DNA of 20,438 bases from IMG/VR virus record IMGVR_UViG_3300018875_000056, positions 1 to 20,438 of that record, one strand, 5' to 3'. Both the position numbers and the translations under genes were made by a program. This DNA comes from a virus. Of the stretch, positions 5,652-20,234 are shown piece after piece (position 1 is the first letter of the stretch; every line of letters starts with the position of its first letter). The notes below the pieces were generated by a model. The model saw only the letters and a program-made list of their open reading frames with translations, did no database searches and was not told where the DNA came from.

Positions 5652-5909
5652 ATGGGAGCAGCGATGTCCCTTGATATTACTGGCGAACGCGTTGAAACCA
5701 CGGTACAGCCTCAAAGAATGTACACGCCGACGATCCTGTCGATCCGGGCAAAAAGCGGCATAGTGGAGATCCACTGTAATGACGAACAGCTGGCTGAGAT
5801 CGAATTCGCGATTCGTCAGCATTTTGAAAAAATAAAATATCCGGAGTCACCCGAGCCAACAGTTCAAGACGTCGGCCTCGAGTATTCCGTTAAGGAGGAA
5901 ATCGCTTGA
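5652..5909 (+). CDS. Hypothetical protein, 85 aa
   Basis: ATG lies about 8 bases after a GAGGGAG site. The product is a small mixed domain with an ERVETTVQPQRMYTPTILSI segment and an acidic C-terminus. Its last bases overlap the TTG start of the SbcC-like gene by 4, and the AAGGAGG for that gene lies in its 3' end, so the two are probably coupled. This hints at a link with the recombination block, but no motif shows it. Confidence 0.65.
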   Translation: MGAAMSLDITGERVETTVQPQRMYTPTILSIRAKSGIVEIHCNDEQLAEIEFAIRQHFEKIKYPESPEPTVQDVGLEYSVKEEIA

Positions 5910-7906
5910 AGAAGATTGTTCTGGAGCGTCTGACGTTCCGTAATTTTAAGGGATTCCGTGAATTTGTTCTCGACGCCAACGGTGGGAATGTGGATGCCTT
6001 TGGAGACAACGCAACTGGCAAAACAACGCTGTTTGATGGCTTCACTTGGCTTTTGTTCGGAAAGGATAGTGCCAATCGGTCCGAACAGAAGTTTGAAATA
6101 AAGGAGCTGGACAAGGCCGGCAAAGTTGTGCGGCATGGCCTTGAACATGAAGTTGAGGGTGTCCTTCTGGTTAATCAGCGCCGTCGAACGTTCCGGAGAG
6201 TGTTCAGCGAAAAGTGGACACAGAAACGGGGTTCAGCCACATCTGTATTCGACGGCCATACAACCAATTATTTTGTGGACGGGGTTCCAGTTAAGGAAAA
6301 AGAGTACAAGGCGGAAGTGGATGCGTTGATCAGCGAAGATGTTTTCAAGCTTCTCACCAGCCCTTCTTATTTTAACGAGGTGCTGAAGCCGGAAGCCCGC
6401 CGAAAAGTACTGCTGGAGGTCTGCGGCGATATGACGGATGCGGAGATTATCGCCAGCAACAAAGAGCTAACTCCATTGGCTGCTATCTTGGAGGAGCGAA
6501 CGGTTGAAAAGCATAAGCAAACGATTAAATCAACGCTTGCGGAGATCAATAAGGAAATCAAGGAGATCCCTACAAGGATCGACGAGAAATACCGTGACAA
6601 GCCGGATGTATCCGATCTGGACGCAGAGTTGCTACAGGAAGACATCGACACCTTGCGTGGCAGGATAGACGCGAAGACTGCGGAACTGCAGCGCATTCAG
6701 TCTGGCGGTGAGCTGGCCGCCAAGGAAATCCATCTACGGGAGATCAACGCCGAGCTGACGGACATCAAACAACGAGTCCAAGCAGATGGCTTGCAAGCCG
6801 TGAACAAGCAACGGGAGCGGTTGATGCAACTTCGCGGCGAAGCATCTGATCTGCAAGCCAGAATATCTGCAGGGCGACGAGAGATTGAGCAATACAAGCG
6901 GCAAATCGAACGAGCTGAGAGCCAAGCGGAACGGCTGCGTGAGGAATGGCATGCTGCTAACGGGTTGGAGTTCCCCGCCCAAGAACATGAGCACGATGAA
7001 AATTGTCCGACTTGCGGACAAGTCCTCCCAGCTGATCAAGTACAGGCAGCGAAGGACAAGGCACTGGCCGACTTCAATGTTTCCAAATCTCAGCGGCTTG
7101 AACGAATTTCTGCCGAAGGCAAGTCCGCTGCTGATGAGGCCAGAAAGCTCAAGCATTCCATGTTTGATCTGGAAGAGAGCGTGTCAGCATTAGAGGAGAA
7201 ACTTTCGGTGAAGCAAGAGGAAGTATCCGCAGCTGAAGCAAAGCTAGTCGACCTGCAGGCTTCCGTTTCCGATCCGGCCGACGATCCAGAGTACCGGGCC
7301 AAACTAAAAGAGGCTGAGACCGTACGCTCAGAAATAGAGCAGCTTCGTTCCTCTGCTTCCGACGCTATCAGCAAGGTTCAAGCCGAAATCGGATTGCTCA
7401 GGGATCAAGTCATTGAACTCGAATCGGATAAGTTAAAAATTGCAGCAGCAGCCGCGATTGAAAAACGAATCGCCGAATTGACCGAACAGGAGCGCAAACT
7501 GGCTGTCGAATACGAGCGGCTGCAGCATGAGCTCTATTTGACGGAAGAGTTTACGAGGACCAAAGTTTCCGCACTCGAGTCCAAAATCAACAGCAAATTC
7601 AAATACGCCCGGTTCCGGCTGTTTGAGGAACAACTAAATGGCGGCCTGAACGATGTCTGCAAGACGCTTTATAACGGTGTTCCATATGACGGTGGCCTCA
7701 ACAATGCCGCTCAAATCAATGTAGGCCTGGACATTATCAACACCCTCAGCGAACACTATGGTTTCATCGCACCAATCTTCATTGACAACGCTGAATCGGT
7801 TACGCAGCTGATTGATACCGAGGCGCAGCTGATCCGTTTAGTCGTATCCGAGAAGGATAAGAAGCTGCGCGTCGTAACCCACAACAACATGCAGGAGGCG
7901 ATCTAA
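5906..7906 (+). CDS. SbcC/Rad50-like AAA ATPase (phage recombination)
   Basis: This 666-aa protein has the layout of an SMC/Rad50-type ATPase. Walker A GDNATGKT is at residues 33-40. Long coiled-coil arms (about 170-360 and 380-560) flank a zinc-hook motif CPTC at 367-370. A Walker-B-like strand IFIDNAE has Asp627 near the C-terminus. It is shorter than cellular SbcC (about 1000 aa), as is usual for phage members. It starts with TTG, 7 bases after AAGGAGG, overlapping the previous gene. No SbcD-type nuclease gene is adjacent, but RecT and a metallo-beta-lactamase-fold protein follow directly. It probably processes or tethers DNA ends for phage recombination or replication. Confidence 0.88.
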   Translation: MKKIVLERLTFRNFKGFREFVLDANGGNVDAFGDNATGKTTLFDGFTWLLFGKDSANRSEQKFEIKELDKAGKVVRHGLEHEVEGVLLVNQRRRTFRRVFSEKWTQKRGSATSVFDGHTTNYFVDGVPVKEKEYKAEVDALISEDVFKLLTSPSYFNEVLKPEARRKVLLEVCGDMTDAEIIASNKELTPLAAILEERTVEKHKQTIKSTLAEINKEIKEIPTRIDEKYRDKPDVSDLDAELLQEDIDTLRGRIDAKTAELQRIQSGGELAAKEIHLREINAELTDIKQRVQADGLQAVNKQRERLMQLRGEASDLQARISAGRREIEQYKRQIERAESQAERLREEWHAANGLEFPAQEHEHDENCPTCGQVLPADQVQAAKDKALADFNVSKSQRLERISAEGKSAADEARKLKHSMFDLEESVSALEEKLSVKQEEVSAAEAKLVDLQASVSDPADDPEYRAKLKEAETVRSEIEQLRSSASDAISKVQAEIGLLRDQVIELESDKLKIAAAAAIEKRIAELTEQERKLAVEYERLQHELYLTEEFTRTKVSALESKINSKFKYARFRLFEEQLNGGLNDVCKTLYNGVPYDGGLNNAAQINVGLDIINTLSEHYGFIAPIFIDNAESVTQLIDTEAQLIRLVVSEKDKKLRVVTHNNMQEAI

Positions 7907-8971
7907 TTGACTACTAAAAACCAAGCGGCTGTCACCAAGAAAGAGCCAACTCAGTCCGAGCGGTTCATGACCAAGGTTATAGCCGAGTTCGGTTCCAACG
8001 TCGGTGAAGTGGCCCTGACGAACTTTCAAAAGCGACTCGCTCAGAACTACTTTGTCGCCCTGGATTCGGTTCTGAAATCTGCCGAAGAGAAGCGGCTGAA
8101 GAAATCGGAACGATACCGGGACCCACTTCCGGTCACCTGGAACAATGTCAATATGGAGAAGCTTGCCCGGGATGTTGTTGCTTACGCCAGAATCGGGTTT
8201 GATCCCTCACAGCCAAATCATATCAGTCTGGTTCCCTTCAAAAACAACAATACAGGCAAGTACGACATTGGATTCATTGAGGGGTATCGAGGGTTGGAGC
8301 TCAAAGCTGTGAAGTATGGGCTGGATGTTCCGGATCACGTAACCGTTGAGCTTGTTTATTCCAACGATTATTTCAGACCAATTAAGAAGGATGCCAATCA
8401 CCCTCATGAAGGTTACGAGTTTGAAATTAAAAATGCATTTGATCGCGGAAAGATCGTCGGGGGCTTTTACTTCCATTCGTATACCAAGGCCCCGGAAAAG
8501 AACAAATTGGTCATGATGACCATTTCTGAAATTGAGAAGAGGAAGCCGGACCATGCCAGCCCAGAATTCTGGGGCGGAGAGAAAGACAAATGGGAAAACG
8601 GCCAGAAGGTCGGCAAGGAAAAGGTCGAAGGCTGGTACGAGAAAATGTGCTGGAAGACAGTATACCGGGCCGCCCATAGTGATATCACCATTGATAGCCA
8701 AAAGATTGATGATGATTATCTCCGACTGAAGCAAATGGAGAGTGATTTCGCCGAATCTGAGGTCAATGAGGAGATCAGAGCCAATGCCAATAAGAACGTC
8801 ATCGACATTACGCCTCCTACCGCCGCTGATCCCGAACCAGAGCCGGAACAGCCAAAGGAAGCAGTTCGCTCATCAAAGAGCAATGTAGAACCGGCCGGAC
8901 AAGGAGAAATGGATTTTGAAATCCATCCGGATGATATTCCTCCGATCGGTACTGAGGGGCCTGATTTCTGA
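7907..8971 (+). CDS. recT: RecT-family single-strand annealing protein
   Basis: This 354-aa protein matches the RecT family over about residues 15-290, including ARDVVAYARIGFDPSQPNH, VPFKNNNTGKYDIGFIEGYRG and the C-terminal WYEKMCWKTVYRAA followed by an acidic helical part. RecT anneals complementary single strands and works with an exonuclease in phage recombination. The C-terminal tail (about 290-354) is Pro/Glu-rich and disordered in appearance. The TTG start directly abuts the stop codon of the SbcC-like gene, with AGGAGG 8 bases upstream. The next gene overlaps its stop codon by one base. Confidence 0.93.
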   Translation: MTTKNQAAVTKKEPTQSERFMTKVIAEFGSNVGEVALTNFQKRLAQNYFVALDSVLKSAEEKRLKKSERYRDPLPVTWNNVNMEKLARDVVAYARIGFDPSQPNHISLVPFKNNNTGKYDIGFIEGYRGLELKAVKYGLDVPDHVTVELVYSNDYFRPIKKDANHPHEGYEFEIKNAFDRGKIVGGFYFHSYTKAPEKNKLVMMTISEIEKRKPDHASPEFWGGEKDKWENGQKVGKEKVEGWYEKMCWKTVYRAAHSDITIDSQKIDDDYLRLKQMESDFAESEVNEEIRANANKNVIDITPPTAADPEPEPEQPKEAVRSSKSNVEPAGQGEMDFEIHPDDIPPIGTEGPDF

Positions 8972-9678
8972 TGATCGACATTCAATGCCTCGGCTCCAGC
9001 AGCGCGGGTAATGCCTACCGGATCTCGGACGGGCATACCGCTCTCCTGCTGGAGGCCGGCTTTCCTTTCAAATCCCTGCAGCGAGCGTTGAAGTTTCGTA
9101 TGACTGAGATTGCCGGCTGCCTTATCACCCATGAACACATGGACCATAGTAAGGCCGCTAAGGACATCATGCAGGCCGGAGTGGACGTTTATACCAGCCA
9201 GGGAACAGCGGATGCCAGAGGGCTCTCCGGGCATCGTCTGAAGGTCATCAAGGCATTGGAGCCGTTTCATGTTGGCACCTGGTCGATTCTCCCCTTTGAC
9301 ATACAGCACGACGTCGAGGAGCCACTAGGGTTCCTGCTGGCCAATACAGCCGGGGACAAGCTAGTCTTCCTGACGGACACCTATTATTGCAGACATCGCT
9401 TCCGGGATCTAACCCACATCATGGTGGAATGCAATTATTCGATGGACATCGTAAGGGAACGGGTGGCGTCCGGCCACCTGCATCCAGGACAAATGAAACG
9501 ACTGCTGAAGTCGCACTTTGGCCTGGAACATGTAAAAGATTTCTTGAAAGCCAATGATACCCGAAAAGTCCAAGAGATTTGGCTGTTGCACTTATCGGAC
9601 GGTAATAGCGATGAGGAACGTTTCAAACGAGAGATTCAGGAAGTGACCGGAAAGATGGTCCGGGTGGCCGGACGATGA
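8971..9678 (+). CDS. Metallo-beta-lactamase-fold hydrolase (YycJ/WalJ-like)
   Basis: This 235-aa protein carries the metal-binding motif THEHMDH with His54, His56, Asp58 and His59, then His113 and Asp136 (FLTDTYY) as likely further ligands, and HLH at 169-171. The start CLGSSSAGNAYRI is typical of the YycJ/WalJ group, whose members act on nucleic acids as exonucleases or repair factors. The ATG overlaps the recT stop codon (TGATG). Phages often carry such an enzyme beside recT; here no YqaJ or lambda-type exonuclease is present, so it may supply the 5' exonuclease activity. That pairing is inference. Confidence 0.88.
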   Translation: MIDIQCLGSSSAGNAYRISDGHTALLLEAGFPFKSLQRALKFRMTEIAGCLITHEHMDHSKAAKDIMQAGVDVYTSQGTADARGLSGHRLKVIKALEPFHVGTWSILPFDIQHDVEEPLGFLLANTAGDKLVFLTDTYYCRHRFRDLTHIMVECNYSMDIVRERVASGHLHPGQMKRLLKSHFGLEHVKDFLKANDTRKVQEIWLLHLSDGNSDEERFKREIQEVTGKMVRVAGR

Positions 9679-9863
9679 TCGACGGCAAACCTCTAATGCG
9701 CAGCATGATGGGTGATCGGATCTGGAGCTTAATGCAATCAGATCCGGAAGAGTTTAAGCGGGAGACCCGCGTGTATTTCGCTCGAGGCTATCCCGGGTGG
9801 ACTGTAGTGAAAGTTAAATACCCGATCGTATACCTTCGGGACGACAGGGGGCGTCAAGGTTGA
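9675..9863 (+). CDS. Hypothetical protein, 62 aa
   Basis: The ATG overlaps the previous stop by 4 bases (ATGA). The product is a compact basic protein with the segment RETRVYFARGYPGWTVVKVK and ends with charged residues. It overlaps the start of the next reading frame by 4 bases (TTGA). No family recognised. Confidence 0.65.
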   Translation: MIDGKPLMRSMMGDRIWSLMQSDPEEFKRETRVYFARGYPGWTVVKVKYPIVYLRDDRGRQG

Positions 9864-15236: not shown

Positions 15237-16301
15237 ATGCAAGAAAAACGGAATGTCATGAATATCTCCTTTGGCAAAGACAGTACAGCCATGTGGATTT
15301 ATGCACTTGAACAAGGCGTGGATATTACCCCTGTGTTTTGCGATACAGGGAACGAACATCCACTCACATATGAATACGGTAATTATCTCGAGAAAAAGCT
15401 CGGATCCATCCGACGTATCAAGGCGGATTTTTCGGAGCGAATACTTCGTAAACGCGAGTATATCCAAAAACATTGGCCACGAAAGCTAACCACAGACACT
15501 CCAGGAAGATGGCACTATATCGGACCAGGTATAGAACAGGATTTAGCTGTGGAGCCATCTGGAGAACCAAAAGATCCTAGCAAAGAAATAGAGTTTGGTC
15601 ACTGGAGGTGGTATCCGGCTCAAAAGGGCATGTCTGATAATGAGGCGACCGAGACTATTAAGACAGCTCTGAATTTACTATACCCGTCTGGAAACCCGTT
15701 TTTAGATTTATGTTTGTGGAAAGGGCGCTTCCCTTCGACACGACGCCGATTTTGCACTGTTGAATTAAAGGTGAGGCCAACGGAAGATCAAGTTTATTAT
15801 CCTTTACTAGAAGCAGGTTATAAGGTTACAAGCTGGCAAGGAGTACGGGCACAAGAAAGTGCTGCTCGTGCTAAATTACCGGAATGGGAAGGAACACCAG
15901 AGGGATATGAGATTTACCGACCTCTGCTGCATTGGACGGTAGAGGATGTATTCGATATTCACCGAAAGCACGGCATTGAACCCAATCCTTTATACAAGCT
16001 TGGTATGGGAAGAGTCGGATGTATGCCATGTGTAAATTGCAATAAATCTGAGCTATTTGAGATTGCAAGGCGTTTCCCAAAGGAAATCGAGCGGATAGCG
16101 AAGTGGGAGGAACTCGTTAAAAAGGTGAGTAAGCGGCAAGGAGCTACTTTTTTTCCAACTGCGAGCGGTCTAGGGGATGGAATATATGAGGTTGTAGAGT
16201 GGTCGAAAACAGCATACGGGGGCCGGCAATATGACTTATTGAAAGCAATCGAGTTCGAAGACGTTCCAGCATGCTCAAGCGTGTACGGTCTATGTGAATA
16301 A
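15237..16301 (+). CDS. Phosphoadenosine phosphosulfate reductase-family protein
   Basis: This 354-aa protein has the PP-loop SFGKDS at residues 11-16, the segment RRRFCTVELKVRP typical of the PAPS reductase/adenine nucleotide alpha-hydrolase family, and a Cys cluster GCMPCVNC at Cys262, Cys265 and Cys268 that may hold an iron-sulfur cluster or zinc. Such enzymes activate or transfer sulfur, and relatives act in sulfate assimilation and in phosphorothioate DNA modification (DndC). Phages often carry members of unknown role. No partner Dnd genes are present, so DNA phosphorothioation by the phage alone is unlikely. The start at 15237 follows GGGGGA by about 8 bases. Confidence 0.85.
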   Translation: MQEKRNVMNISFGKDSTAMWIYALEQGVDITPVFCDTGNEHPLTYEYGNYLEKKLGSIRRIKADFSERILRKREYIQKHWPRKLTTDTPGRWHYIGPGIEQDLAVEPSGEPKDPSKEIEFGHWRWYPAQKGMSDNEATETIKTALNLLYPSGNPFLDLCLWKGRFPSTRRRFCTVELKVRPTEDQVYYPLLEAGYKVTSWQGVRAQESAARAKLPEWEGTPEGYEIYRPLLHWTVEDVFDIHRKHGIEPNPLYKLGMGRVGCMPCVNCNKSELFEIARRFPKEIERIAKWEELVKKVSKRQGATFFPTASGLGDGIYEVVEWSKTAYGGRQYDLLKAIEFEDVPACSSVYGLCE

Positions 16302-17189: not shown

Positions 17190-18260
17190 TCAACTTCGAT
17201 AATACTTTAATTTCAATTGATTAGGTTTAATATTTTGAGTGAAATTCGAATCAATATTTCTTCCATCTCTATGGTAGATTGTTTTTGTAATAAGAAATAT
17301 AATGCATTCATTATTAAAAGTGGGTCTCATTAGCATTCTTGAAAGTAAATCACCTTGGTTATTGAATAGTTTGAATTCTCCAACTGTATTTTCATCTATT
17401 ATGTTATACAGGGATTCAGGAAAGTTGTCAGACAAATTTTTAGAAAAGTATTGTCCAGTATCATTTGATATATATCCATCACACTGTAATATAGTTTGAG
17501 TTGAATTATAAATATTTATAGAAAATATAAAGTTTCTAAATTTTATGGGAAGTAGAAAATTAACCTCATAAGTTGGATTGTTTTTTGGTGGGTTTCTATA
17601 TATTTCAATTGAAGGATTTGATTTTAAAATTATGTGATCTATGTTTCCTCCAATTTTGCTCAACAGAATAATATCTTGAACTTTCTCAGCACTGGGGAGA
17701 TATTCCTTACCCAATGGATCTTTTAAATTTCTAATTTGGTTTAGTAAAATGGTAATACTAATTAAAAATAGAGATAGTAACAAATAGAATACATAAATCC
17801 CAAAATTTATAGATGCCTCAACACTAAACTCTAATGAAAGTGAGTAAGCATATTTCGTGTAGAAACCAACAACCGAACCCCAAATGAAAATAGCTGTAGA
17901 GGTGGTAAATAGAAAACCGAAATAAATTAAATTAATAACTTTATTATTGGAAACATTAATCTCATATTCTGAGAAAAGATGTATATAAGATTCAGAGGAA
18001 AGGGTAATGGGATTCTTTATCAATTGTAATTGTCTAGATGCTTCAATTAACTTATTTTCATAGGTGAAACCAATAAACAAACCGAAAAATGAAATTATAG
18101 ACATTACCCCAGAAAATATCCAACTAATTAATTCTACTTGGTCTTTTACATCATCATAGTTTTGATTTGAAAAATTTTGATTAAAATCTATAAAAAACAA
18201 GAAAATTAAAGGCGCTAACACTGCTATAAAAGGAAGTCCCCATCTACTTATAATTTTCAT
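17190..18260 (-). CDS. Unknown membrane protein with four transmembrane helices
   Basis: This 356-aa protein has four strong hydrophobic segments at about residues 8-26, 43-67, 109-134 and 151-174, arranged as two hairpin pairs with a 40-residue loop between them. A soluble C-terminal half follows (about 180-356). No catalytic motif is evident. The overall plan recalls SLATT/S-4TM-type membrane effectors of bacterial conflict systems, but only in layout. It is the last gene of a three-gene minus-strand operon; its start overlaps the previous gene by 17 bases and AAAGGA lies about 6 bases before the ATG. Base composition is much richer in A and T than the early operon, suggesting separate origin. 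Confidence 0.75.
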   Translation of the reverse strand: MKIISRWGLPFIAVLAPLIFLFFIDFNQNFSNQNYDDVKDQVELISWIFSGVMSIISFFGLFIGFTYENKLIEASRQLQLIKNPITLSSESYIHLFSEYEINVSNNKVINLIYFGFLFTTSTAIFIWGSVVGFYTKYAYSLSLEFSVEASINFGIYVFYLLLSLFLISITILLNQIRNLKDPLGKEYLPSAEKVQDIILLSKIGGNIDHIILKSNPSIEIYRNPPKNNPTYEVNFLLPIKFRNFIFSINIYNSTQTILQCDGYISNDTGQYFSKNLSDNFPESLYNIIDENTVGEFKLFNNQGDLLSRMLMRPTFNNECIIFLITKTIYHRDGRNIDSNFTQNIKPNQLKLKYYRS

Positions 18261-18879
18261 AAATATCCTTTGCTAATGTTTTTATGATTTCTAATATTTC
18301 ACTTTCATCAATTGTAGTATGAAATGAAATTACTGAGTTTTGATCAAGAAAAAAAGGTACATTGTTGTATCTAAAAGTAATGCTTGCAACTGAGTCTGAA
18401 TCGAAAAAACTTACAATTTCTGATGATTTTAGTCTGGATACAACTAAATTTTTTAGGTTAGTATCGTTAAATACTGTAGATTCAGTTTTAACTTGTATAT
18501 TAGATAAGGTGGCAAACCAACTCTCTTTTGTAAAAAAAATGTTTTTCCAGTATTCAAAAAGGGGAATTTTCTCAAGATGAACATTTGTTTTTAAAAACAT
18601 ATTATGTATTGCATAAGTTATTCCACTTTCGGAATTTCCGAAGCAACAGATTAATTTCTTTTCCTCAAAAATCCAGAATATTATTTCTTTTTGTTCACGT
18701 AAAATCAACTTGTTTTTTATAGTTATCGGATCGATCCATCTGTATAAAATTTGTTTTACATTATGAAATTCTAAGTATTCTATAGCTTCAAAATTATTAC
18801 AAGTGAGACTTAACACTCTTGAGACAAATTTTTCATCACTATATTTATAAAAAGTACAATCTTCACCCCAGATTAGCAT
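18244..18879 (-). CDS. Unknown soluble protein, 211 aa, cargo operon
   Basis: This 211-aa protein has no membrane segment or signal peptide. Many aromatic and beta-prone segments are visible (LYRWIDPITIKNKLILRE, then EIIFWIFEEKKLICCF, and a C-terminal helix ESEILEIIKTLAKDIYENYK). I recognise no catalytic motif. GGTGAG lies about 6 bases before the ATG, only 17 bases after the stop of the upstream gene, and its 3' end overlaps the membrane-protein gene. The tight spacing suggests the three proteins function together. It could be a regulator, immunity factor or sensor; nothing in the sequence decides. Confidence 0.72.
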   Translation of the reverse strand: MLIWGEDCTFYKYSDEKFVSRVLSLTCNNFEAIEYLEFHNVKQILYRWIDPITIKNKLILREQKEIIFWIFEEKKLICCFGNSESGITYAIHNMFLKTNVHLEKIPLFEYWKNIFFTKESWFATLSNIQVKTESTVFNDTNLKNLVVSRLKSSEIVSFFDSDSVASITFRYNNVPFFLDQNSVISFHTTIDESEILEIIKTLAKDIYENYK

Positions 18880-18896
18880 TAAGTCTCACCCATTCA

Positions 18897-20234
18897 TTAA
18901 ATTAATTCAGCCTCAGTTTCTTTTTCGGCTTCTTCATCTGAATAATCTTCTTCGTCCAATACTTGGTTTTGCTCCAAGCCAATGAAATTTTGTATAGGAT
19001 CCAATACACTAAGGGCATCATCTGAACCAACTGCACTCAAAATTGTTTGGTTTGCAAGGACGAAGTTGCGTAGCAGATCTGTTACATTAGCATCTTGGTC
19101 ATTAAGCTTTTCTAGCAAATTAGAAAGAACTTGAATCGAGGTAACAGTATTTGTTTGAATCGTTCTTTGAAGTAATTGATCTCTTGAAGCATATCGTTCA
19201 GCAATAGTATTTAACAGCTTTTTTGTCTTTTCTATATCCACTATGCCAGAACCACACATATCAATGTATTCTTTTTGGATTATAGACATCACAGTATTTT
19301 TCAAATCCTCATTATCAGTATCCATTAATACGATTTTTAATATATCTAATTTCTCACCTTTTAGAAAGACTTTCGTTGTAAATCTTTCGTCACCAAGTGT
19401 CATATCAACTTTGAAATATACAATGTCACTGCCTGTTGTAATATACTCACATGCTAATTGTGAAGACAAAAGTGCATCTCCGCCAATTGCCACATTTTTA
19501 ATACCGTCTTTTCTTTGCTTAGTACGAGTATAAAATTTTAGTTCGTTAAAGGTAGAACGAATTCCTTTATTCGTTAACCTATTATGAACAAGATCGAGCA
19601 AAAGGGCAGTTTTAAAACTTGCATTCCCTATATCAATTAATTGGTTAGTAATTTCGGTAATTCGGTATGCAGTTAATGGCCAATTGAATTCAAATTGTAG
19701 AAACTTTATAAGGACTTCTTGCACTATGTGGCTCCCAGTATAGATGGTCATTACCTTACTAAAAGGCTCTATAGTTACCCTAGAAGTATATACTGCAGAA
19801 AGGCTTTCAGGATTTATAACACCTGTTTTCCATGAGCCTTCATATTCCTTTAAACGAATATTTAAGTCAATTAATTGATCAGAGAATGCGACTACTTCAA
19901 TTGAAATTGTATATATGTTTTCAAAACGAACATCGAATTTTGAAAAATCTTCTCGAAAAGTATCTTCATTTTTACCAGTAAGGAAGTCAGTATTAGTCAA
20001 TTTGTATGTATACGCAGGAAGACCTTGGGTTTTTTTCATCACTGCCATTTCGACAAAATCTTCAATCTCATCATCACGTATAAATCTAGCAAGATCAAGA
20101 AAAGCGTCACGTATATCATCTTTCTTTTTCACTTTCTTTTCAGATCTCCAACCTGAACGTTCCGCAATTAATTCTTGCGCGGCTTGTAGTGGTATCTTTT
20201 TAAGTACTCTTTCTAAAATTTTGGATTTATTCAT
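18897..20234 (-). CDS. Unknown soluble protein, 445 aa, first cargo operon gene
   Basis: This 445-aa protein is the first and largest gene of the cargo operon. The N-terminal part (about 1-70) is helical and charged (KSKILERVLKKIPLQAAQEL). The middle part (about 75-300) is mixed, with SIEVVAFSDQLIDLNIRLKE and GGDALLSSQLACEYITTGS. The C-terminal third is helical (residues about 300-420) and ends in a very acidic tail (LDEEDYSDEEAEKETEAE). I see no Walker, nuclease, TIR, NTase or other known effector motif. AGGAGAGG lies about 5 bases before the ATG. The acidic tail might control DNA or protein binding. Function unknown. Confidence 0.75.
   Translation of the reverse strand: MNKSKILERVLKKIPLQAAQELIAERSGWRSEKKVKKKDDIRDAFLDLARFIRDDEIEDFVEMAVMKKTQGLPAYTYKLTNTDFLTGKNEDTFREDFSKFDVRFENIYTISIEVVAFSDQLIDLNIRLKEYEGSWKTGVINPESLSAVYTSRVTIEPFSKVMTIYTGSHIVQEVLIKFLQFEFNWPLTAYRITEITNQLIDIGNASFKTALLLDLVHNRLTNKGIRSTFNELKFYTRTKQRKDGIKNVAIGGDALLSSQLACEYITTGSDIVYFKVDMTLGDERFTTKVFLKGEKLDILKIVLMDTDNEDLKNTVMSIIQKEYIDMCGSGIVDIEKTKKLLNTIAERYASRDQLLQRTIQTNTVTSIQVLSNLLEKLNDQDANVTDLLRNFVLANQTILSAVGSDDALSVLDPIQNFIGLEQNQVLDEEDYSDEEAEKETEAELI

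Follow-up and report, generated by a model that had tools for sequence, protein, structure and literature searches.

The window, the whole 20,438-base stretch analysed here, is a virus record of IMG/VR (IMGVR_UViG_3300018875_000056) and is probably a fragment of a longer phage; near-identical gene cassettes occur in the 52-53 kb records L014 and L015, and also in L012, there with a different RecT core. The cassette in question is a three-gene module at positions 5906-9678, all on the forward strand and without gaps, whose products are an SbcC/Rad50-like ATPase, a protein resembling RecT and one of the metallo-β-lactamase (MBL) fold, and which may constitute a phage single-strand-annealing unit. 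An earlier note on the same sequence had placed these three genes at these coordinates, and it is correct by open reading frames (ORFs), PHROG families and Pfam domains. The module has the following features:

5906..7906, forward strand: SbcC/Rad50-like ATPase of 666 amino acids (aa) with a TTG start; matches phrog_77 (E 2.7e-87) and Pfam AAA_23; Walker A, CxxC (C367, C370) and Walker B at D627-N628.

7907..8971, forward strand: predicted RecT-fold single-strand annealing protein of 354 aa with a TTG start; matches phrog_34753 (8e-151, unknown function) and phrog_148, RecT (4e-11); its model matches 7ub2.

8795..8968, forward strand: C-terminal tail of the RecT-fold protein, about residues 297-354; acidic, mostly predicted to be disordered, with an SSB-like tip, ending ..DDIPPIGTEGPDF.

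8971..9678, forward strand: MBL-fold hydrolase of 235 aa, of apparent WalJ/YycJ type and a proposed 5'-3' exonuclease; matches phrog_392 (metal-dependent hydrolase, 1.2e-79).

The boundaries between the genes are tight. The TTG start of the SbcC-like gene overlaps the stop of the ORF upstream and is preceded by a Shine-Dalgarno-like AAGGAGG, the TTG start of the RecT gene follows immediately 3' of the SbcC stop codon, and the ATG of the MBL gene has one base in common with the RecT stop; taken alone, this spacing suggests that the three genes are translationally coupled. The Pfam RecT model found no match in the window RecT. The predicted structure of the middle protein (mean pLDDT 74) has one clear neighbour among solved structures, the RecT of Listeria phage A118 (7ub2, Foldseek E 2.6e-6), with which it aligns at Z 11.4 over 183 residues with an rmsd of 4.6, and on this model the protein is of the RecT/Red-beta fold. 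The window MBL is 98% identical to an MBL of P. lactis, and for that reason the host of the phage is probably a Paenibacillus.

Relatives in phage records number 192 for the MBL and 139 for the ATPase, and only 2, both weak, for the window RecT. The locus sets on which the following counts rest were seeded and overlap, with several loci to a record, and protein counts are therefore given as distinct and as non-redundant sequences; 424 loci were counted, and L344-L367 (cellular WalJ and other profile matches) were left out of the counts of annealase, MBL and YqaJ and of those of gene order. Wherever a locus from the phage, IMG/VR and genome collections contained all three genes, their order was SbcC-annealase-MBL (297 of 297), which bears out the earlier suggestion that the three genes are one unit. 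The cassette is widespread among phages of Gram-positive bacteria and is also found in those of Bacteroidota. Its order is common to phages AP45 (Aeribacillus), PVL (Staphylococcus), Page (Bacillus), B054 (Listeria), Rani and Bloom (Paenibacillus), SDFMU_Pfc (Lysinibacillus), phi19:3 (Cellulophaga), Versailles (Bacteroides) and BUCT702 (Stenotrophomonas), and some of the neighbourhoods that were opened have a small additional gene inserted within the cassette. Sets seeded with the annealase, and thus blind to its partners, gave 156 scored loci (55+78+7+16), with an MBL in 155, an SbcC in 147 and YqaJ in none, the missing MBL and SbcC genes falling at contig ends. Departures from the pattern are few: 16 of the 424 loci have an MBL without a matched annealase, namely L310 (with a RecT-like protein of phrog_561), L327 and L328 (with a phrog_862 protein as middle gene) and 13 in which no SbcC was matched either, which were judged, as a group rather than one by one, to be cut contigs or cellular homologues. 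Two further loci (L165, L229) have annealase and SbcC without an MBL, and in both the contig ends directly after the annealase.

The module appears to take the place of a standard exonuclease, the absence of which had been claimed from the sequence of the window. YqaJ (PF09588) was found neither in the window nor in any of the 99 module records searched, a total that includes AP45 twice, with phage GBSV1 positive as a control. The claim would have been undermined by a classic exonuclease encoded in another part of the phage. Profiles of four nuclease families detected none in longer relatives: besides YqaJ, the families DUF3799, PDDEXK_1 and Metallophos (PF00149, the SbcD type) each matched 0 of 50 records, 49 of them module records, the last with 14 of 14 control genomes positive. 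All 93 scored loci seeded with YqaJ had an annealase and neither SbcC nor MBL. Annealase loci with either partner amount to 406 of the 424, of which 309 have the MBL, 97 have YqaJ and none has both, so that in the sets examined the two are mutually exclusive. The genus Listeria offers an example of each kind, phage A118 having an exonuclease-RecT pair with none of the module genes in its annotated early region, and phage B054 the MBL module.

The MBL enzyme is highly conserved. H54, H56, D58, H59, H113, D136 and H207, which we take to be its metal ligands, are the same in all 53 sequences of an alignment that includes the window (L262 was excluded for a stop codon inside its match), and the structure model is confident (pLDDT 96.7). 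A profile built from 14 phage MBLs recovered one near full-length homologue per genome in 8 of 8 Bacillota genomes (1.9e-39 to 8.9e-46), the next-best family reaching only 1.5e-13. The gene context of this homologue was inspected in two of the eight: in B. spizizenii it lies between genes that are presumably HtrC-like and WalI/WalH-like, and in P. lactis beside genes that we likewise take to be WalI/WalH-like. Because the near full-length match stands far above those to other families and the homologue sits in the wal locus in both of these genomes, the nearest cellular family of the phage MBL is by sequence WalJ/YycJ, and the phage enzyme can be classed as of that type. WalJ of B. anthracis is described in the introduction of one paper as a 5'-3' exonuclease of double-stranded DNA (PMC4801191), which is the activity required of an annealase partner.

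Two other identities for the MBL have to be considered here. Apyc1 is a cyclic-nucleotide esterase that acts against host defence, and a small-molecule hydrolase of this sort could lie beside recT fortuitously or so as to be expressed early together with it. Apyc1 (7u2s, 7u2r) is indeed among the profile and fold matches of the MBL, with YhfI the top fold match, but the profile reaches Apyc1 at 3.5e-7 over residues 3-66, as against about 1e-45 for WalJ, where the match spans almost the whole protein, and the linkage to an annealase in the annealase-seeded loci is near total, which together make this explanation improbable. The second has been published: a recT-'lactamase B2' pair without a recognisable exonuclease nearby was noted in Bacillales prophages and tied to the spread of drug resistance (PMC8093625, 2021). 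This is the same gene pair, likewise lacking a recognisable exonuclease, and the Pfam superfamily domain Lactamase_B_2 does match the window MBL above its cut-off; the NCBIfam model for class B beta-lactamases, however, scores it at 20.6 bits against a cut-off of 100, the enzyme groups with WalJ, and the cassette is a recombination cassette found in phages of Bacillota, Bacteroides and Cellulophaga. That the pair spreads a resistance gene is thus scarcely credible. The available portion of that paper mentions neither the kinship with WalJ, nor the constant presence of SbcC as partner, nor the tail or the swap described below. Profile distances thus weaken both the Apyc1-like and the beta-lactamase identity, and assignment of a function from the fold search was dropped, as too many MBL folds match about equally.

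The middle slot of the module is not tied to one annealase family. Its occupants belong to phrog_34753 (the window), phrog_148, phrog_2185, phrog_2760/252 (Bet-like), phrog_2780 and, in L310, phrog_561. Most of them have in common an acidic tail whose last residue is aromatic. The last 30 residues of 220 module annealases contain on average 7.6 acidic and 1.8 basic residues, and the commonest last four are GPGF (61 of 220) and GPDF (33 of 220). In the window RecT, pLDDT falls below 50 at residues 304-340 and 343-354, the last 50 or so residues being mostly predicted to be disordered, and the tail has the traits of an SSB-type tip: disorder, acidity and a hydrophobic or aromatic last residue. 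For comparison, the SSBs of PVL, phi19:3 and BUCT702 end DDDDLPF, EIDDLPF and TDDQLPF, respectively. An aromatic last residue (F, W or Y) is present in 224 of 238 distinct annealases encoded beside an MBL (94 of 106 non-redundant) and in 0 of 53 beside YqaJ (0 of 12 non-redundant). The difference is also seen within annealase groups, with the tip in 2/2 MBL-paired against 0/33 YqaJ-paired members of the A118-like group, and in 8/9 against 0/1 of the Versailles-like group. The overlap of the RecT stop with the MBL start might suggest that the tip results from the ribosome-binding site of the MBL gene, but 15 of 17 distinct annealases with a distant MBL (start estimated at least 40 nt downstream of the annealase) retain it, and this explanation was rejected. 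On the possibility that the tip substitutes for a missing SSB, the SSB profile PF00436 carries little weight: it matched only 2 of 50 records (49 module-bearing), but it also found no SSB in GBSV1, a YqaJ phage, and it missed the annotated SSB of phi19:3.

A natural exchange separates tail from core. The window and L012 are alike in 1814 of 2001 bases of the SbcC gene and 688 of 708 bases of the MBL gene, while the cores of their RecT proteins belong to different families and have no DNA similarity; in a blastn comparison the similarity ends at the SbcC stop (7906) and restarts at 8794, the start of the tail. A swap has therefore replaced the RecT core and retained the tail. Among 90 sequences sampled from the 220, tail similarity showed a partial rank correlation of 0.36 with MBL similarity and 0.17 with core similarity (permutation p 0.003 each). 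A separate observation concerns two loci from Clostridia-type metagenome-assembled genomes (L327, 7366-7989; L328, 7327-7989), in which SbcC and MBL flank a phrog_862 protein of unknown function that ends ECPI and could be either a further annealase or a protein like SSB.

The ATPase has retained some motifs of its family and altered another. Walker A is kept in all 11 aligned sequences, with its GxN..GK core and both zinc-hook cysteines invariant or nearly so; among 232 distinct relatives, CxxC is present in 232 and the Walker A pattern in 220. Rad50 and SbcC carry the catalytic Walker-B glutamate directly after the aspartate. At this position the phage proteins have asparagine, D627-N628 in the window, the Asp-Asn pair being common to all 11 aligned sequences; the D-N-x-E pattern is found in 211 of the 232 relatives, and of 19 that miss the pattern the six inspected are also DN, with one D-F and one D-S besides. 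Because asparagine replaces the catalytic glutamate, it is doubtful, judging from these motifs, that the protein is a canonical SbcCD-type motor, although E630, near Walker B and invariant in the alignment, may serve in place of the missing residue. The loss of the glutamate favours a Gam-like explanation, in which the SbcC-like protein is a decoy that blocks or co-opts host SbcCD or AddAB and the MBL is still the exonuclease. The order of lambda is gam-bet-exo, which SbcC-annealase-MBL would repeat. In Lactobacillus plantarum, lp_0640-41-42 lie in the corresponding order of putative host-nuclease inhibitor, annealase and exonuclease, and have been likened to Red (PMC4595204). An inhibitor would nevertheless have no need of the Walker A and CxxC motifs, which are retained, and the conserved E630 may be the catalytic residue, so that the Gam-like explanation is unlikely, if worth keeping in mind. 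Alternatively, the single strands could be produced by host nucleases, leaving the MBL and the SbcC-like protein to act on hairpins, branches or replication intermediates rather than to resect ends. PHROGs annotates the ATPase family as subunit of a palindrome-specific endonuclease (an annotation only), the relatives of the MBL fold include endonucleases, and in L327 and L328 SbcC and MBL enclose a gene not recognisable as an annealase. The exclusivity with YqaJ, on the other hand, suggests that it is the resection step that has been replaced, and a role in hairpins or branches seems rather unlikely.

We consider it moderately probable that the trio is a single-strand-annealing unit in which the MBL resects, RecT anneals and docks by its tip, and the Rad50-like ATPase assists. 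The proposal of the earlier note, that the MBL may be the nuclease and the Rad50-like protein may act with it in place of SbcD, is partly supported; the spread of the unit, the exchangeable annealase and the SSB-like tip lay beyond what that note could see. As a phage branch of WalJ/YycJ, the MBL would stand in for YqaJ, RecE or lambda Exo and resect 5' strands from DNA ends, with a nuclease activity and a polarity that are inferred. RecT would coat and anneal the 3' single strands, and its acidic tail with the terminal aromatic residue would act like the C-terminal tip of an SSB, docking a constant component of the unit, for which the MBL is the likeliest candidate. The zinc-hook ATPase would bind, bridge or tether the ends and help the nuclease to start, perhaps as an ATP clamp, as the asparagine at the Walker-B glutamate position would suggest; we infer both this role and the docking partner of the tail. 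A wider proposal, which we make tentatively and with somewhat less than even confidence, is that a WalJ-type 5'-3' exonuclease and a Rad50-like clamp form a constant core, onto which exchangeable annealases are docked by their SSB-mimicking tip rather than by their fold, with recombination shuffling the annealase cores and keeping the tip, and that such modules are a distinct class of phage recombinase.

Several points weigh against this annealing unit or its parts. The exonuclease activity of YycJ reportedly goes back to one cited study, Yang 2013, and the MBL model resembles RNase Z, RNase J and CPSF73 but is matched at least equally well by YhfI and other MBLs that are not nucleases, so that the fold is no proof of a nuclease. 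The figures for exclusivity with YqaJ come from seeded sets, in which two YqaJ sequences served as seeds and a single profile represented the family, and numerous records are fragments. The tip is missing in 14 of the 238 MBL-paired annealases, including 3 of 3 of the Rani type, as well as in the phrog_561 protein of L310 and the phrog_862 proteins of L327 and L328, and in the GBSV1-like group the single MBL-paired case lacks it (0/1, against 0/19 with YqaJ). The YqaJ-paired RecTs of L423 and L425 end ISDDDLPFN and ISDDDLPFD, that is, in an SSB-like DDDLPF followed by one residue, which weakens the view that the tip is strictly specific to the MBL. The association of tail and MBL may also be, at least in part, a matter of hitch-hiking, because the tail DNA adjoins the MBL gene. 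Finally, other work has tied WalJ to DNA segregation, cell division and the cell wall (PMC4801191).

Compared with known systems, the module resembles lambda Red and Rac RecET in that its early operon places a RecT/Red-beta-fold annealase beside a single putative nuclease, but differs in having an MBL rather than a YqaJ-family nuclease, an additional Rad50-like ATPase and an exchangeable annealase family. The phage MBL is somewhat shorter than WalJ/YycJ (VicX), a chromosomal MBL of Bacillota, and is encoded with RecT and an SbcC-like gene outside the wal locus. With SbcCD and Rad50-Mre11 the module shares a Rad50-like ATPase with Walker A and zinc-hook motifs encoded alongside a metallo-enzyme; unlike them, it has no SbcD-type Metallophos protein in the 50 records, its ATPase is short (666 aa), and Walker B reads DN for DE. 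A search of a limited library of papers, mostly at the level of listings, found no source that treats the MBL as the nuclease of the module or describes the tip, and no assay of the MBL enzyme in a resection role. The presence of several annealase families in one slot, the aromatic tip beside MBL but not YqaJ, and the core swap with the tail kept are new. If the proposed mechanism is true, phages of Staphylococcus, Bacillus, Listeria, Paenibacillus, Cellulophaga and Bacteroides use for resection an enzyme previously suspected of spreading drug resistance. It would also strengthen the case that the debated WalJ family acts on DNA, give recombineering in Gram-positive bacteria a new nuclease/annealase pair to work with, and show a route by which annealases become interchangeable through a tail.

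The cassette was also seen in phages labelled as infecting Proteobacteria (OM735687 and OM735689, Stenotrophomonas; OP712483, Pseudomonas PSV3). The MBL of PSV3 has a score identical to those of S. aureus phage MBLs, which raises the question of wrong host labels or contamination. Elsewhere in the window, the left part has a serine integrase and an ImmA/IrrE-like gene, then the early operon, and the module itself is flanked by two small ORFs:

5652..5909, forward strand: small ORF of 85 aa; phrog_31439, function unknown; its stop overlaps the SbcC-like start.

9675..9863, forward strand: ORF of 62 aa without a Pfam or NCBIfam match; it overlaps the MBL stop and may belong to the operon.

At the right end of the window (17190-20234) lie three minus-strand genes of 356, 211 and 445 aa; none of the three matches a PHROG, the 356- and 445-aa ones match no Pfam family either, and cargo or defence genes are a possible identity for them. 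A PAPS-reductase-like gene is located at 15237-16301 (Pfam 7e-26, phrog_424), and another lies downstream of the cassette in Cellulophaga phage phi19:3.

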